The notes under the pieces: model-generated | Databases searched by the model: none | What the model saw: the letters and a program-made list of their open reading frames with translations, nothing else | What the model was told of the DNA's origin: nothing | Part shown: one piece after another, positions 4,060-20,834 of the stretch | Layout: each line of letters opens with the position of its first letter | How positions within the stretch are numbered: the stretch's first letter is position 1 | Made by a program: the position numbers and the translations under genes | DNA from: a virus | Virus record (IMG/VR): IMGVR_UViG_3300018080_000498 | Location: 1-27,776 of that record | Reading direction: 5' to 3' (one strand) | DNA: 27,776 nucleotides

Positions 4060-4341
4060 TTAATGGCCAAATTGTGACATAGTTTCATAATAAACACTAC
4101 CTTTGGCATGAGGGTCAAAACTTCCCAGCCTCTTATTTTTCATACTCCCATCATTGCAATATGGATATGAGCCACGAAGTATTAAATCGCCATTGTAGTC
4201 CGTTTTAATCCTTAAAGTGAATATATCGCCATAAGGTTCATTAGTTGGTTCTTGCTTCCATGTTTGGCAACTTGCCCCACGATTGATATAACTTGTCATT
4301 CTACATTTAGCACTTTTACCGCTTTTGGATACTTCCAACAC
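4060..4341 (-). CDS. hypothetical protein, start codon uncertain (no ATG)
   Basis: The open frame encodes up to 93 residues from a GTG at 4341, with no ribosome site in front of it. Reading further upstream in the same frame gives NYDYVIVLEVSKSGKSAKC, which looks like genuine protein sequence, yet a stop codon precedes it and no ATG, GTG or TTG supplies a start there. Two ATGs nearby (ATGACTATG) are in another frame. The product contains DIFTLRIKTDYNGDLILRGS and ends YYETMSQFGH. I do not recognise a family. Translation could be coupled to the upstream gene, or the 5' end may have been damaged by a small indel. The upstream gene is itself interrupted. Confidence 0.45.
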   Translation of the reverse strand: MLEVSKSGKSAKCRMTSYINRGASCQTWKQEPTNEPYGDIFTLRIKTDYNGDLILRGSYPYCNDGSMKNKRLGSFDPHAKGSVYYETMSQFGH

Positions 4342-4357
4342 TATTACATAGTCATAA

Positions 4358-4648
4358 TTAGTCTGATTCTTTTACTTCTTCATTTATCATACTAATTAGT
4401 TCTTCGGTATTAACTTCTTTACTAACATTGCTTGGTCTTAGCTGGCTTTGATGTCTGCTTGTTGATACAGAATACTTATCACTATTTTCATACCATATAC
4501 CATTAATGCTAGCATACATTGGAAAATGTTTACCATAGGAATAAACAACATATTTATTCCCTTCCCAAGTTCCAAAGGTATTGCTTGCTTTGAACTATTG
4601 GCGTGCGTTAACGCAGCTTTTTGCCTCTTTGTTTGATGTTCTAATCAT
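4358..4648 (-). pseudogene. small phage protein gene interrupted by an in-frame TAG
   Basis: The ATG at 4648 follows AAAGGAGGTAGAAAG, an excellent ribosome site. The frame reads MIRTSNKEAKSCVNARQ, then TAG at 4597-4595, then continues open for 78 codons: FKASNTFGTWEGNKYVVYSY, GKHFPMYA, IWYEN, KYSVSTSRHQSQLRP, and an acidic tail. The block YVVYSYG.HFP ... WYEN ... KYS.STS.HQSQ.RP recalls a small phage and plasmid protein family that starts with a similar N-terminus, so the two halves look like one gene of about 96 codons. No usable start codon lies between the TAG and the conserved core. An in-frame ATG at 4702 with its own GGGAG could add 18 residues at the front. Either this is a nonsense mutation, a sequencing or assembly error, or the TAG is read through. 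Confidence 0.6.
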
Positions 4649-4724
4649 CTTTCTACCTCCTTTGTTAGTGTTGCTTGTTTTATCTTGGTTTTTGTTTAAC
4701 ATCTTATCTCCCTTTGTTAACTCT

Positions 4725-4752
4725 AGTATATCACACACTCACACATTGTCAA
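4725..4752 (-). promoter_or_regulatory. near-consensus sigma-70 promoter, leftward
   Basis: The minus strand carries TTGACA (4752-4747), a 16-bp GT-rich spacer and TATACT (4730-4725). Transcription would start near 4718, just before the first ribosome site of the left arm. It is one of the two best promoters in the window, and the other, at 5203-5231, points the opposite way. Confidence 0.7.
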
Positions 4753-5202
4753 GTATTTATTTTAACTTTTTTTGCCTTTTAAAAACCGCAAAGTCTTTTT
4801 GATATATCATCAAAGTCTAGCCATTATATATGTTTAGTATTATTTCCTATATATGGAAGCTTTAGGTTAGGTTGGGGATAGTCTATGCATTTTTGAGTAT
4901 ATGCTCATAAATAAAAGAAAGCGCTCCACTTTGCCCTATGTATGCGTATAAATAGCCAGATATACACCCAAAAGCTTTATTTTTTTAGATTTCTTCCCCG
5001 TAGTTAACATAATATATATTATCGGCGCTTTGTTTGCTTTGTTTTGTTGTAAATTGCTCAAGATTTGCTTGTAGAAGTGCTTCGTGCAAGGGGCGGGGGG
5101 ATACAACTACATCTATACTTCCACCTAAGCTCCAGGGTATAAAATACATTAAGTGACACAACAGTTAGCTTTACAATATCCATAAAAAAATGTTTACAAA
5201 AG
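4753..5202. other. intergenic control region between divergent arms
   Basis: I see no credible gene here. The stretch is very AT-rich with several ordered sequences. TTTGAT-ATATC-ATCAAA is an inverted repeat at 4798-4814, flanked by two copies of CAAAGTCT (4789-4796 and 4811-4818) just upstream of the leftward promoter. TGAG..CTCA is a short dyad near 4894. ATAATATATATTAT at 5009-5022 is a perfect 14-bp palindrome. A small hairpin at 5068-5090 is followed directly by GGGGCGGGGGG (5090-5100), a striking G-run in AT-rich DNA. These could be operators, an origin or a packaging recognition region. No function is shown. Confidence 0.5.
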
Positions 5203-5231
5203 TTGACAATATACTATATGTAGTGTATACT
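5203..5231 (+). promoter_or_regulatory. consensus-like sigma-70 promoter, rightward
   Basis: TTGACA (5203-5208), exactly 17 bp, then TATACT (5226-5231) give one of the best matches to a bacterial housekeeping promoter in the window. The start would be near 5238, giving a leader of about 300 nt before the small terminase gene. The promoter sits inside a repeat array, so it is probably repressed or otherwise timed. Confidence 0.7.
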
Positions 5232-5260
5232 TTGTAATGTATACAATATGTAGTATATGA
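5216..5260 (+). repeat. operator-like AT-rich repeats over the rightward promoter
   Basis: ATATGTAGTGTATAC (5216-5230) and ATATGTAGTATATGA (5246-5260) are imperfect direct repeats offset by exactly 30 bp, about three helical turns. GTATAC occurs at 5225-5230 and 5239-5244. ATATACTATAT (5209-5219) is also nearly the complement of the second repeat, so the same half-site appears in both directions. One copy overlaps the -10 element, the expected position for repression. Confidence 0.5.
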
Positions 5261-5280
5261 CATTGTTTTTTTGTTCATTT

Positions 5281-5541
5281 AAAGAATGGTTTGTGGCAGA
5301 ATAAGCCGACCTTTGGGTTAATGTACTGTACCGTCAGGTAGCCGAAAGACCGAGGGCAACGCTGTAGGTTGGATTAGGACTAATGGAAACATTAGAGAAG
5401 ATGGCGAAAAAAGATAGACTAACAAATACGGTCTGTTGGTATAGGTACTGGTTAGATGTCTTTTATCATGGTGCAAAGGCAGACCAGTTGTAGGTAATGC
5501 AATCAATCCTACCAAACTATTTTTTAAACAAAAGGGGAAGC
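5281..5541 (+). other. structured leader RNA upstream of the small terminase gene
   Basis: This stretch is richer in G+C than the control region before it and contains several clean pairings. These are TC(A)GGT..ACCGA around 5332-5353, a perfect CTAATG-GAAA-CATTAG hairpin with a GNRA tetraloop at 5380-5395, GGTCTG (5430-5435) with CAGACC (5480-5485), and GTAGG..CCTAC around 5491-5512. The last hairpin encloses the in-frame ATG at 5497 and ends before the real ribosome site, so it could control terminase translation. No known ribozyme, riboswitch or intron signature was found. One weak short frame overlaps it (5383-5493). Confidence 0.4.
5383..5493 (+). CDS. possible 36-aa leader peptide
   Basis: A frame of 36 codons (METLEKMAKKDRLTNTVCWY, then RYWLDVFYHGAKADQL) ends in TAG just before the small terminase. 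It is in the same phase as the terminase frame, separated only by that TAG and the next few codons. AGGA lies only three bases before the ATG, which is too close, and the ATG sits in the stem of a perfect hairpin. Composition looks protein-like, but the leader may simply be RNA. Confidence 0.28.
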   Translation: METLEKMAKKDRLTNTVCWYRYWLDVFYHGAKADQL

Positions 5542-6066
5542 GTGGAGCAAAAGATAGTAGTTGCAGACGAATATGAGGCACGGGTAGCCGAGTTCGATCT
5601 TAAAGACGAGCAACACCAATTCTTATTAAATTATCCTGATATGCCGAACCGAAACCGGCAAAACTGCGAACTTATTGGGATCAATGTCAATAAATTTTAC
5701 AGATGGCGTAAACAGCCGAAATTCAAAGCTGCCCTGAAAGTGGCTCGGGATGAGGCTAATTCACGGCAACGGCTTCGTGATATGGAACACGTTGAACGTG
5801 CTGAAGATCAACTTTTTGAAAACATTTTAAACGGCAAAGAAGTTAGCCTTTTATTTTATTTGAAAAACCGGTGTCCAGAGCGTTGGAAAAACGATTATGA
5901 ATTAGGCCAGGTATTTATCCAAAACAATAAATTAAATATGAACTTTATTAAAACAGAATTTGCAGAATTATCAAATAAAGATTTGTTGAAAAAGATAGAC
6001 GGGATGGCACGGGAAATTCAAATCGCTAAAAAAGAGGGAGAAAACGATGAACTTAGGAATTTGTAA
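5542..6066 (+). CDS. terS: terminase small subunit-like DNA-binding protein
   Basis: The GTG at 5542 with AAAGGGGAAG before it is preferred. An in-frame ATG at 5497 would add 15 residues but lies within a hairpin. The 174-residue protein has an early helix-turn-helix-like segment (DMPNRNRQNCELIGINVNKF, then YRWRKQPKFKAALKVARDEA), which matches the recognition part of small terminases. It is followed by a helical oligomerisation-type region with LLFYLKNRCPERWKNDY, a phrase typical of the family. The C-terminus is charged. It lies two genes before the large terminase. Its role would be recognition of the packaging site on concatemeric DNA and loading of the large subunit. The fold call is good; the DNA site is unknown. 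Confidence 0.72.
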   Translation: MEQKIVVADEYEARVAEFDLKDEQHQFLLNYPDMPNRNRQNCELIGINVNKFYRWRKQPKFKAALKVARDEANSRQRLRDMEHVERAEDQLFENILNGKEVSLLFYLKNRCPERWKNDYELGQVFIQNNKLNMNFIKTEFAELSNKDLLKKIDGMAREIQIAKKEGENDELRNL

Positions 6067-6577
6067 AGCGTGTAGGCAACGCAACGAGTTACACGGGGGT
6101 CGAGATGGTATGGGTTATTGCGAAAGTTGTCTAAAGAATGGTGCTGATTTAGATAACAGGTTTCGTGAACCTAACGAAGAAAAATTAGATATGTTAAAAC
6201 CATCTGAAAGAGATTTTACGAATGCTAGTGGCCCGGCACTAAGCCACAAACAAGAACTGTTAGATTTTATTATCAGTCATGTAGATTCTAACTGGATAGA
6301 CAATTTTCTTATAAGTTATATGGAACAGTTAAAACAATCTTATGGCTGGGTAAATGTTTTACAAAATATTGATAACGAATTAATTCTTTTCAGGATGGCA
6401 ACTGAACTAGGTTACGGCAAGATAGAGCCAGAAACCACATTAGATTATCTAAGAGGTTTAACTACTGAAACAGTTTCAACTGTAGTAGAAGGAATTGATA
6501 AACGAGCTAAATATGGCAAGAAGTCAAAAGGAAGAAAATCTAAGAAAGTTGCTACTGGAGTTGAACCAAAGGCGTAA
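6047..6577 (+). CDS. zinc-ribbon protein between the terminase genes
   Basis: The ATG at 6047 follows GAGGGAGAAAACG and overlaps the end of the small terminase gene by 20 bases. The 176-residue product begins with a zinc ribbon (ICKACRQRNELHGG then GYCESCLKNG: CxxC and CxxC about 19 residues apart). A helical middle follows (LSHKQELLDFIISHVDSNWI, FLISYMEQLKQSYGWVN) and then a very basic tail (RAKYGKKSKGRKSKKVA). I do not recognise the family. Placement between the terminase genes suggests a packaging or head-assembly accessory, or a DNA-binding protein acting at the packaging site. The last 65 bases overlap the large terminase start. Confidence 0.68.
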   Translation: MNLGICKACRQRNELHGGRDGMGYCESCLKNGADLDNRFREPNEEKLDMLKPSERDFTNASGPALSHKQELLDFIISHVDSNWIDNFLISYMEQLKQSYGWVNVLQNIDNELILFRMATELGYGKIEPETTLDYLRGLTTETVSTVVEGIDKRAKYGKKSKGRKSKKVATGVEPKA

Positions 6578-8012
6578 AGCGAACCCTTTGGCGTTTTTTA
6601 TTCCTAATGGTAAGCAAGAAGAATATTTAAAAGTTCCGTCTTTTATAAATATATTCTCTACCGGTAACGGTGTTGGCAAAACTGTATGTGCTGTTAACAT
6701 GATAGGGAATCTTCTTATGGGGCCACAAAACGAATGGTTCAACATACCACGTTACGATAATTTTCCTAGACCTAACACAGGTCGTATAATTTCTACACAT
6801 AAAAATATTGAAGCAAACATTCTTCATGCTGTCCAGGAATGGTTACCCAAACATACATATATGGCTCGTAAGGGCGGTAAAACTTTTTATTCTAAGTTTG
6901 AGTTTATGAACGGCTCAAGTTTTGATCTTATGACATATGATACCGACCCGGAACAGTTTGAAGGTCCCACATTAAATTGGATATGGTTTGATGAGCCGCC
7001 TCCACAACGTATCTTCTCAGCTTGTGTTTCACGACTTAGAAAAGGTGGACTCATAATTATTACGATGACTCCACTATATAGTGGTGGCTGGTTATTTGAC
7101 AAGATTAACGACCCTTTCTCTAACGCTGGTGACTATTTTCTTGTAACAGCAGAAATTGAAGACAATTGCAAGACTCACGGCATACGGGGTATATTGAATC
7201 ACGATGATATAGAACGGATTATTGCTGAATATCCTCCTGAGGAAAAAGCGGCAAGAATATCTGGCGAACCAATACATTTATCGGGGCGAATCTTCTCCCT
7301 GTTTGACCCTGATGTGCATTGTGTAACTCCCGAACACCTCCCGATCTCTGATTCGACTTTATACCTCGTATGCGACCCTCATGATAGAAAACCGTTTGCA
7401 TTAGGTTGGTATGTAATAGATTCTACGGGTGACGCATATATAGTTGATGAATGGCCAAACGATCCGTACCATTCAATGAAGTCTTGCGATTTAACAATAA
7501 AAGATTATGTAGATATTATAAATGAGAAAGAAAAAGCTTTAGGACGTAAGTCTGAGGTAAGAATCATAGATGCTCGTTATGGTAATCGTAAATCTGTACA
7601 AACCGGAGATACTATCCGGGACGAGTTTGATGATTATGGTATACATTTCATGAATAGTTACACAGATGAGAATGCTTCTATACTTACAGGCCACCAAAGA
7701 ATTAAAGAGATGTTATGGTATGACAGAGATTCTGAGATTTCACATACTAACAAACCAAAACTATTTTGTTCCAAAAAATGTTTGAACCATATATACGCTT
7801 TCTTGCATTATGCGTATGCAGATAACAAGCGTATGGAATCAGCGTTAAAAGAGAAACCTCAGGAAAAATATAAAGATTTCATGGATTGTCTTAGATACTT
7901 CGTAATGGATAATCCTTATGTAGATAATCAAGAAGAAGTCTATGAACCTCATGTGCCGACTAGTTGGGATAAGTACCGACAAGGTGAAGCACTAACAAGT
8001 TATGGAGTTTAA
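6513..8012 (+). CDS. terL: terminase large subunit (packaging ATPase/nuclease)
   Basis: The ATG at 6513 (MARSQKEEN) gives 499 residues, and a TTG 18 bases upstream is a weaker option. Walker A is TGNGVGKT at residues 50-57 and Walker B is LNWIWFDEP with the Asp-Glu pair at 160-161. The C-terminal RNase H-like nuclease domain opens with LVCDPHDRKPFALGWY and has RIIDARYGNRKS in the middle. It closes with an acidic residue in FMDCLRYFV, supplying the expected acidic triad. This is the motor that translocates DNA into the procapsid and cuts the concatemer. It is followed after two bases by the portal gene, the standard order. Confidence 0.93.
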   Translation: MARSQKEENLRKLLLELNQRRKANPLAFFIPNGKQEEYLKVPSFINIFSTGNGVGKTVCAVNMIGNLLMGPQNEWFNIPRYDNFPRPNTGRIISTHKNIEANILHAVQEWLPKHTYMARKGGKTFYSKFEFMNGSSFDLMTYDTDPEQFEGPTLNWIWFDEPPPQRIFSACVSRLRKGGLIIITMTPLYSGGWLFDKINDPFSNAGDYFLVTAEIEDNCKTHGIRGILNHDDIERIIAEYPPEEKAARISGEPIHLSGRIFSLFDPDVHCVTPEHLPISDSTLYLVCDPHDRKPFALGWYVIDSTGDAYIVDEWPNDPYHSMKSCDLTIKDYVDIINEKEKALGRKSEVRIIDARYGNRKSVQTGDTIRDEFDDYGIHFMNSYTDENASILTGHQRIKEMLWYDRDSEISHTNKPKLFCSKKCLNHIYAFLHYAYADNKRMESALKEKPQEKYKDFMDCLRYFVMDNPYVDNQEEVYEPHVPTSWDKYRQGEALTSYGV

Positions 8013-18271: not shown

Positions 18272-18493
18272 ATGGCTATTGATTTAACAAAAATGAGTGT
18301 TGAAGAGTTAAAAGCCCTAGCTTATGACATTTCTATTGAAATGGGTAAGAATAGGCAAAGTTTACAAATTGTTGAGGCTGAGATTGTAAAAAGAAATCAG
18401 CCAGTTGAAGCGATTAACGCTTCAGAATGTGAAGCAAAAAAGGGAGAAGAGGTAAAGGATGAAGCAGAATTTAAACCCTGCACAGAAAAATAA
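18272..18493 (+). CDS. small acidic coiled-coil-like protein (73 aa)
   Basis: The start at 18272 follows AGGGAGAGAGG. The sequence MAIDLTKMSVEELKALAYDI, then SIEMGKNRQSLQIVEAEIVK, is helical and resembles the short helical hairpins of many phage accessory proteins. The C-terminus is acidic (SECEAKKGEEVKDEAEFK). No function recognised. It overlaps the glycosyltransferase gene by 35 bases. Confidence 0.58.
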   Translation: MAIDLTKMSVEELKALAYDISIEMGKNRQSLQIVEAEIVKRNQPVEAINASECEAKKGEEVKDEAEFKPCTEK

Positions 18494-20834
18494 GTTATCT
18501 TTAGCAATGATTGTTAAGGACGAAACTACTGAGCTAGACTCATGTTTGGCTTCTATAGCAGATTTCGTTGACGAGATAGTAGTGGCTTGGAACGGAACTA
18601 ACGAGGAGACTAAACAAATACTAGAACGCTATTCCGCTAAGATAGTAAAATATCAATGGAATGACGATTTTGCCGAAGCTCGGAATGCTTCTTTTCAAGC
18701 TACTACTAATCCCTTTGTGTTATGGTTAGATTCAGATGATACAGTTGAGGGAGCAAAGAATATACCAACTCTTATGCAACAGTTTGATGACCCCCATTTA
18801 GGGGCATTATGGGCATACTATGATTATGACCAAGATGAGTATGGTAATACAACTATGGTAGTTTGGCGTGAAAGAATAGTTAGAAAAGATTGGTTCAGTT
18901 GGTCAGGTAAACTTCACGAAGAATGTTTAAAGACTAAAGACTGTATTCAATCCAAGATACCTAAAGAACAAATGTTTATAAAACATCATCCGCAGAAAGA
19001 TAGAATAAATCGTTCTGGAGAACGCAACTTAAGAATCTCTGAAAAGGTTTATAATGAAGAACACAATTCAGGTGATGTAGACGCTTTTAATGTATGGAAT
19101 TATGCCCGTAGTTTAAACGCTATGGGCAAGTTCCAAGAATCAGCAGGTATCTTTGAAGAATTTATTGCTATAACTTCTAGTGATGAACATAGGTATCAAG
19201 CTTGTTCAATACTTTCTGAAATATATCGGAAGATGCACCAATACGATAGAGCGTTAGATACAGATTTAAGAGCTATTAAGATTAAACCTAAATGGCCAGA
19301 TGCTTATTTTAATATGGCTCGTAACTACTTCTTAACTGAAGATTGGGATAACGTAATCTTTTACACAGATCTAGGGTACAAGATGGAGCATCCTAAAGAG
19401 AAGCTTCCAGTACCTTATGACCCATTAAGTTTCACAGTTAAGCCTTTAGAGCCTCTTACATACGCACTTGTTCAACAAGGTAAGTTTAATGAAGCCTTAG
19501 TTGCTTCACAGAAAGCTTTAAAGTTTTTACCTGATAACAAATATTTTAAAAATTGGATTAAGATACTTACTAAAGCTATTGAAAGAGAATCTGTAGAAAA
19601 AGCTTGTCTTACAGTTTATGAATATTTGCAAAAGAATGAAGGCGATAAGATAGAACATTTCGTAAACGCTTTACCAAAGATAGCTCAAGACCATCCACTT
19701 TTTGTTTGGTTACAAAACAAGCATAAAGATTGTGGTGATGGTTCTAACAGAATAATCATATATTGTGGAACAGGTATCATGCTTTGGGACGCTAAGAGTG
19801 CTGAGGAAGGTATCGGTGGCTCTGAAGAAGCTGTAATAAACATCTCACGAGAACTTGCTAAACAAGGTTGGGAAGTAGAAGTTTATAACAACTGTTTAGA
19901 CGAAGGTATCTATGACGGTGTATTGTGGCAAGGTGTTTGGCGCTACGACCAAAATAGGCCATGTCATACATTTATTGGGTGGCGTGACACAAGGTCTATT
20001 ATGTACGCTCCGAAAGAAAGTTATAAGGTTCTATGGTTGCACGATGTTACTAAGTACGAATATTTTACTGATGCACAACTTGCCGCTATAGATAAGATAT
20101 TTGTGCTAAGTAAGTATCACCGAGAGAATTTACCAGAAATTCCAGACGATAAGTTTTGGATAACTTCTAATGGGATTATTCCATCACACTTTGACGAGAA
20201 AGTTACACGGAACCCAAAAGCGTGCATTTATGCGAGTAGCCCTGATAGAGGTTTAGAACGTGTCTTAGAGAATTGGAAAGATATTAAGAAAGAAGTACCT
20301 GACGCAGAGTTGCATATCTTTTATGGATTTACCAAGAACTATGATGTGTTACACCGTTATAATCAAAACATGAAAGATTTTAAACAATACATCTTAGAAC
20401 TATTAGACCAAGATGGCGTTACTTATCATGGCATGGTAAATCATAAAGAGTTAGCTAAATGGTTTCTATATTGTGGACTTTGGTTATACCCAACAAGCTT
20501 TACAGAAATCAGTTGCATAACAGGTATGAAAACACAAGCCGCAGGAACTGTACCAATAATTAGCAACGTAGCGGCATTAGATGAAACAGTTAAGTTCGGT
20601 GTCAAAGTAAACGACCCTAAAGACGAAGCTGAACTTAAAAGATGGAAAGAACAAACAATTTACTATTTAAAGAACCCAGACAATCAAGATGACATTCGTA
20701 AAGATATGATGGAATGGGCTAGATACACATATGATTGGAAACGGGTTGCAAAAAATTGGAGTGACTTTTTTAAAGATGCTAGCAAGAGTGAAACCAGATT
20801 ACAGCGAAGCGATGCTCAGAAAGAACAGGTTTAG
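18459..20834 (+). CDS. two-domain glycosyltransferase (GT2 + TPR + GT-B)
   Basis: The 791-residue protein joins three parts. Residues 13-110 are a GT-A, family-2-type domain: LSLAMIVKDETTELDSCLAS, the IVVAWNG strand, DDFAEARN and WLDSDD with the metal-binding DxD at 91-93. Residues about 200-370 are TPR-like helical repeats (NYARSLNAMGKFQESAGIFE, DRALDTDLRAIKIKPKWPDA). Residues about 430-780 look like a GT-B transferase: GIGGSEEAVINISRELAKQG, then YASSPDRGLERVLENWKDIK, and ELHIFYGF. Two transferase domains could add successive sugars or one could be regulatory. Start ATG 18459 follows GGAGAAGAGG. Targets may be the virion fibres, phage DNA or the host surface. It opens a three-gene glycan cassette inside the structural operon. 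Confidence 0.82.
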   Translation: MKQNLNPAQKNKLSLAMIVKDETTELDSCLASIADFVDEIVVAWNGTNEETKQILERYSAKIVKYQWNDDFAEARNASFQATTNPFVLWLDSDDTVEGAKNIPTLMQQFDDPHLGALWAYYDYDQDEYGNTTMVVWRERIVRKDWFSWSGKLHEECLKTKDCIQSKIPKEQMFIKHHPQKDRINRSGERNLRISEKVYNEEHNSGDVDAFNVWNYARSLNAMGKFQESAGIFEEFIAITSSDEHRYQACSILSEIYRKMHQYDRALDTDLRAIKIKPKWPDAYFNMARNYFLTEDWDNVIFYTDLGYKMEHPKEKLPVPYDPLSFTVKPLEPLTYALVQQGKFNEALVASQKALKFLPDNKYFKNWIKILTKAIERESVEKACLTVYEYLQKNEGDKIEHFVNALPKIAQDHPLFVWLQNKHKDCGDGSNRIIIYCGTGIMLWDAKSAEEGIGGSEEAVINISRELAKQGWEVEVYNNCLDEGIYDGVLWQGVWRYDQNRPCHTFIGWRDTRSIMYAPKESYKVLWLHDVTKYEYFTDAQLAAIDKIFVLSKYHRENLPEIPDDKFWITSNGIIPSHFDEKVTRNPKACIYASSPDRGLERVLENWKDIKKEVPDAELHIFYGFTKNYDVLHRYNQNMKDFKQYILELLDQDGVTYHGMVNHKELAKWFLYCGLWLYPTSFTEISCITGMKTQAAGTVPIISNVAALDETVKFGVKVNDPKDEAELKRWKEQTIYYLKNPDNQDDIRKDMMEWARYTYDWKRVAKNWSDFFKDASKSETRLQRSDAQKEQV

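Follow-up and report, generated by a model that had tools for sequence, protein, structure and literature searches.

A divergent homologue of manA RNA lies ahead of the terminase genes of an SU10-like phage and may act as a free RNA

Introduction

What is the structured RNA encoded just ahead of the terminase genes of an SU10-like phage, and does it serve the genes that follow it? The stretch of DNA analyzed here, referred to throughout as the window, is a virus record of 27,776 bases (IMGVR_UViG_3300018080_000498) from a podovirus, with genes for a capsid and a portal of SU10 type. A first-pass annotation had described a GC-rich leader with several clean pairings between a promoter and the small terminase gene, could match it to no ribozyme, intron, riboswitch, or phage packaging RNA, and offered a regulatory leader, a packaging-associated RNA, or a transcription attenuator as possible readings. 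On sequence grounds, positions 5267-5525 of the window encode a divergent homologue of manA RNA, a folded RNA found mainly in phages, and the question becomes what a member of this class is doing at this position.

Weinberg et al. (2010; PMC2864571) reported manA in T4-like cyanophages, in two gamma-proteobacteria, and in marine samples, and placed it among cis-regulatory RNAs and riboswitch candidates. Rfam files the family (RF01745) as cis-regulatory, the Rfam 14 report gives 48 significant pairs for the original manA alignment (PMC7779021), and the S-CREM1 paper retains the cis-regulatory label (PMC9964418). A transcriptome study of the megaplasmid pMP7017 finds manA next to a tmRNA and an array of tRNAs and states that some manA motifs adjoin tRNAs, so adjacency of manA to tRNAs is already published (PMC10832533). 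In the open-licence literature, represented mostly by titles and abstracts, we found no proposal of manA as a free-standing RNA gene, no placement of manA in an SU10-like phage, and no ligand for it.

Results

Organization of the locus

Genes run leftward from about position 4341 and rightward from the GTG start of the small terminase gene, and the region between these two sets contains two strong sigma-70-like promoters, one facing each way (Table 1). The rightward promoter, which the described RNA follows, is the top-scoring site in 4300-6100, tied with one site on the opposite strand, and a transcript from it would start near 5237. The predicted transcript opens with a candidate hairpin whose bases could alternatively form an operator. 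The described GC enrichment is borne out (0.43 at 5300-5499 versus 0.285 at 5100-5299), as are the other features described, and the view that the terminase transcript begins with a real structured RNA is supported. Of its proposed boundaries, 5281-5541, the GTG start beyond the downstream end was placed at 5542, and the RNA core itself was relocated to 5267-5525 on the plus strand. The gene that follows is identified by matches to PHROG families of the terminase small subunit, the best at E 3.2e-6.

Several other features of the window were noted. TATAC/GTATA and TATGTAGTRTAT repeat units at 5210-5262 overlap the rightward promoter and could be a repressor operator. Upstream of the same promoter, at 5090-5100, lies a G-rich tract, GGGGCGGGGGG, and a similar tract, GGGGGCGGGGGG, precedes the small terminase gene of a relative (L009, 2448-2459); given this similarity, a conserved DNA element, for example an origin or a packaging site, may lie there. 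Amid the structural genes, 18459-20834 encodes a 791-aa protein with glycosyltransferase family 2, TPR, and group 1 glycosyltransferase domains.

Table 1. Positions of the RNA, its helices, and flanking elements in the window
Feature	Position	Strand	Basis
Second strong sigma-70-like promoter, leftward	4752-4725	-	11/12 consensus matches
Sigma-70-like promoter, TTGACA-17 nt-TATACT	5203-5231	+	11/12 consensus matches
Candidate 5'-terminal hairpin, AATGT/ACATT plus ATAC/GTAT	5236-5264	+	Sequence and pairs
Divergent manA RNA core	5267-5525	+	RF01745 match 5267-5522; R1 model match 5269-5522
Closing helix, 5' strand (13 bp here)	5281-5293	+	Covariation; family pairs at 5289-5293, GUUUG
Conserved single-stranded motif, UG + GCAGAAUAA	5294-5304	+	Alignment A3 rows, conserved columns
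Arm helix, 5' strand UGUACC (pairs with 5438-5443)	5327-5332	+	Rfam match, predicted fold
6-bp hairpin with GAAA loop	5380-5395	+	Rfam match, predicted fold
Hairpin AUAGAC/GUCUGU	5414-5436	+	Predicted fold
Arm helix, 3' strand GGUAUA	5438-5443	+	Rfam match, predicted fold
Long hairpin, outer helix ACUGGUU/GACCAGU	5447-5488	+	Rfam match, predicted fold
Conserved 3' hairpin GUAGG/CCUAC (5490-5494/5508-5512), in-frame ATG 5497 in loop	5490-5512	+	Rfam match, predicted fold
Closing helix, 3' strand	5513-5525	+	Covariation; family part CAAAC at 5513-5517
AGGGG ribosome-binding site of terminase gene	5533-5537	+	Sequence
Terminase small subunit, GTG start	5542-6066	+	PHROG 309, E 3.2e-6
Terminase large subunit	6495-8012	+	Pfam PF03237, E 2.2e-7

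The RNA is a divergent homologue of manA

Scanning the window against Rfam at the gathering score gave no match, and a relaxed search was therefore needed. At the relaxed threshold RF01745 aligns to the core over all 192 model positions with 49.6 bits (E 1.6e-11), which misses the family's gathering cut-off of 55.2 bits, a threshold set by curators rather than a biological feature. Because the score lies under this cut-off we name the RNA a divergent homologue and not an Rfam member; the first-pass statement that it resembled nothing known gives way to a full-length, sub-threshold match to manA. A separate model, R1, was built from 22 manA RNAs of other contigs with the window excluded and with a structure that omits the closing helix. 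Run across the window without filters, R1 recovered the same element at 28.3 bits (E 4.8e-8), the next best site scoring 5.0, and four relatives without the RNA gave at most 6.9 bits. The window score falls among those of other divergent members (24-60 bits). BLASTN of the region against named phages returned nothing useful.

Most hallmarks of the family are present. The closing helix is followed by UG (GUUUG-UG ... CAAAC), GAAUAA follows at 5299-5304, and the arm helix carries its GNRA-type hairpin, which is the perfect six-pair stem with a GAAA loop singled out by the first-pass annotation. The family's 3' hairpin (GNNGG/CCNNC, loop UA...AAU), whose loop holds the ATG that the annotation had reported in the last hairpin, directly abuts the closing helix at 5513. 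The GGUGGUG hairpin and the ACCA arm loop are absent from the window RNA, which has the loop UAACAAAUACG instead, and gaps in these two arms also occur in several other divergent members.

Covariation supports the fold

Elements of the family came from loci located by BLAST, by protein, and by patterns on the 3' hairpin and the GAAUAA region, so conservation at these two places is partly built in; the patterns did not include the closing helix, promoters, tRNAs, or terminators. Alignment A3 holds 39 matches from 40 cluster representatives (L059 is absent), and 5 of the 39 rows have gapped closing-helix anchors (L163, L051, L238, L263, L243) and were dropped from the count for that helix. The 34 rows with intact anchors form 164 of 170 standard closing-helix pairs. 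In the 17 rows without the usual GGGAG, 79 of 85 pairs are retained and 15 rows are perfect, where 20,000 shuffles gave a mean of 50.0 pairs and a maximum of 68. Across 55 pairs of A3, 90.6% of cells are paired versus 59.9% in shuffles (none of 500 as high) and at most 46.9% in slid controls, a figure that is favoured because A3 was fitted to the R1 structure, whereas the closing helix lay outside R1. Both sides change across A3 at 51 of the 55 pairs. The window row contributes 37 standard pairs, one that is not, and 17 in gaps, and 16 of the 37 differ from the commonest pair on both sides. The compensatory changes that the first-pass annotation had named as its check are thus found, in the closing helix and in the 55-pair test.

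Folded without constraints, 5236-5545 (-78.9 kcal/mol) adopts exactly the structure obtained when six family helices are imposed. The folding energy itself is ordinary (z -1.31), with 20 of 200 shuffles folding as well or better, and what stands out from chance is the family match together with covariation, not folding energy. Two ideas about the closing helix were dropped. Its bracketed notation in the Rfam structure line had been read as a pseudoknot, and the helix is nested. The usual 3' end of manA, ACCUCC, resembles the anti-Shine-Dalgarno sequence, and a role of that kind was abandoned since in the window the covarying helix has CAAAC there.

Carriers and neighbours of manA RNAs

BLAST with two manA RNAs returned 39 and 45 named phage records, all from cyanophages or marine viruses. 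Fifteen complete cyanophages were chosen, one record per phage, leaving out duplicates, near-duplicates, and unannotated marine records; every one contains exactly one manA match at E <= 1. The copies are sense-oriented before genes and have seven kinds of neighbour: the RNA lies after gp23 in five genomes, after pstS in three, before talC in three (one with an opposite-strand ORF between), and before gp32, purL, a carbamoyltransferase gene, and tRNA-Gly in one each. Tiny annotated hypothetical proteins overlap manA in P-HM1, P-SSM4, P-HM2, and S-SSM5 (L131, L133, L135, and L136).

In a broader set of 84 records, made up of 80 of at least 120 stretches found by pattern and four capsid relatives, 59 contain manA by a match at E <= 0.1, and a single record, G015, shows a further copy of lower score (49.2 bits). 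The family collection comprises at least 152 elements in 40 clusters at 88% identity; matches cut by a contig end or scoring 22.5 bits or less are omitted, except L059, and the coordinates of L051 and L059 combine Rfam and R1 ends. The manA model also gives short matches of about 90 nt (L010 1830-1924, L256 12129-12223, L189 3415-3503, and L257 1534-1622), which may be miniature manA-like RNAs; the one in L010 adjoins tRNA-Asn. Three phage contigs with manA (L053, L058, and L081) also contain tmRNA genes matching the permuted tmRNA model of Rfam, and L051 has a glutamine riboswitch match (RF01739, 1573-1622) just upstream of manA on the same strand.

Promoters, tRNAs, and terminators at the ends of the RNA

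Promoters were counted for the 146 elements with enough upstream sequence, and here as elsewhere the element counts are not independent, members of one cluster being related. A promoter with at least 10 of 12 consensus matches and a -10 box ending 3-15 nt before the RNA accompanies 92 of the 146 elements in 19 of 40 clusters, as compared with 159 of 25,902 control positions (0.6%), and in 72 of these 92 elements the -10 box stands 6 or 7 nt before the RNA. Allowing 50 nt and requiring at least 11 of 12 matches again gives 92 of 146 elements, now in 22 of 40 clusters with the window included (control, 94 of 12,963). The -10 box of the window lies 36 nt upstream of the RNA, versus the usual 6-7 nt. 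A tRNA on the same strand occurs within 15 nt of 26 of 152 elements, in 9 of 40 clusters (control, 193 of 26,558, or 0.7%), some of these calls being doubtful as ARAGORN was run at a relaxed threshold. In four clusters at least one member has manA flanked by tRNAs on either side, and in L010 the RNA sits directly between two tRNAs. Downstream, at a distance of up to about 120 nt, a terminator-like site is present for 22 of 151 elements, spread over 12 of the 40 clusters (control, 71 of 5,343, or 1.3%). The RNA of the window has no tRNA neighbour, and searches of 4300-6100 and of the sequence past the element turned up no terminator-like site. Neither a close promoter nor a tRNA was seen in 15 of the 40 clusters, the window among them.

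The RNA is not tied to the terminase module

Relatives of the large terminase were found with an alignment of five large terminases. In the best 80 of 92 such relatives, 43 of which include 1.7 kb or more of sequence ahead of the match, R1 detected the RNA in none at E <= 1, with the window positive alongside. The Rfam manA model found none in 47 of these records searched whole, in a run made without a positive control. Phages whose major capsid protein is about 80% identical lack the RNA, and a protein search with the small terminase found no relative in viral contigs. Since 0 of 80 terminase relatives carry it, the RNA looks like a local acquisition and not part of the terminase module, and its position ahead of terminase here is probably happenstance for a phage RNA gene.

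Discussion

Taken together, the data lead us to favour, with moderate confidence, a phage RNA gene whose product works mainly as a free, discrete RNA and not in control of the next gene. One copy per genome, many kinds of neighbour, and defined ends argue for a discrete trans-acting RNA, and the tRNA sandwiches are the strongest point, since no protein gene directly follows the RNA there. The position of the promoter alone fits a free RNA and a leader equally, and among the points against a free RNA are that the window copy has neither tRNA neighbour nor terminator, its promoter standing 36 nt away, that 15 of 40 clusters lack both a close promoter and a tRNA, and that G015 has a second copy. 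The RNA would be transcribed rightward from the promoter that its consensus match suggests, and it folds into a multi-branched domain closed by one helix, as covariation across the family shows. It would then act on some target besides the following gene, which is most likely also how the relatives in cyanophages and tRNA arrays work. At the head of the terminase transcript it would either be processed free or be kept on a read-through mRNA. Many relatives lie among phage tRNAs and tmRNAs, and for this reason the target may be the host translation or RNA-processing machinery. A broader proposal, which we advance tentatively and with slightly more doubt than conviction, is that all manA RNAs form a widespread class of autonomous trans-acting RNA genes of phages and plasmids, one per genome, expressed from their own promoter or excised from a tRNA array, and are not switches.

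The principal alternative, possible but less probable, has the RNA acting in cis, as a leader or riboswitch governing how the terminase operon is translated or transcribed. The RNA is sense-oriented and stops 7 nt short of the ribosome-binding site, cyanophage copies likewise precede genes in sense orientation, and the 2010 survey lists manA as cis-regulatory "Y" and riboswitch "y" (PMC2864571). In the minimum-energy fold predicted for the full transcript, 5261-5272 is paired, with many G-U pairs, to the ribosome-binding site and start codon of the terminase gene, and such masking of the start site would suit a cis role. A leader is harder to reconcile with seven kinds of neighbour at one copy per cyanophage genome, with copies sandwiched between tRNAs, and with absence of the RNA from all 80 terminase relatives. 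The regulatory leader of the first-pass annotation is therefore retained as a possibility and is not our first choice.

The other two readings in that annotation fare worse. A transcription attenuator, to which the U run at 5520-5525 after the family part of the closing helix might point, is very unlikely given that this U run lies within the extended closing helix itself and that terminator-like sites are absent from 4300-6100 and downstream of the element. The phi29 pRNA is a packaging RNA, and a counterpart in the window would be suggested by adjacency to the terminase genes and by nothing else. We give this still less credence, as the relatives of the RNA stand beside gp23, pstS, talC, gp32, purL, and tRNAs rather than terminase, and with none of 80 terminase relatives carrying the RNA there is no conserved tie to packaging genes. 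Chance hairpins without a functional RNA, consistent with the ordinary folding energy, can be practically dismissed in view of the Rfam and R1 matches, the covariation of the closing helix and the 55 pairs, and the double changes in the window row.

Since 2010 manA has been an orphan riboswitch candidate, and its annotation is still cis-regulatory. If the RNA acts free, neighbouring genes are the wrong guide in looking for a ligand, and the fitting experiments would be deletions and pull-downs in the course of infection, which cultured cyanophages make possible. The copy in the window shows, as judged from its sequence, that the class reaches SU10-like phages, and its divergence indicates that the Rfam cut-off misses members outside cyanophages.

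Compared with RF01745, the window RNA has the closing helix, GAAUAA, arm helix, GNRA hairpin, long hairpin, and 3' hairpin in the same order. It differs in the 42- and 41-nt stretches that replace two short arms, in a closing helix of 13 bp, and in having no GGUGGUG loop, and its carrier differs from the usual ones in being an SU10-like phage with terminase downstream. The manA motif of pMP7017, a bifidobacterial plasmid, is reported to have a tRNA array and a tmRNA adjacent. GOLLD and ROOL are described as phage-borne structured RNAs of unknown function often found near tRNA islands (PMC12286853). Both are much larger than manA and differ from it in structure, and manA is not known to form cages; manA may resemble them as a free phage RNA without being a member of either class. 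The manA layout of a closing stem, a 2-nt linker, and an abutting 5-bp 3' hairpin can also be compared with that of the acceptor and T arms of tRNA, and this tRNA-like arrangement suggests that manA RNAs may engage the tRNA-processing or translation machinery.
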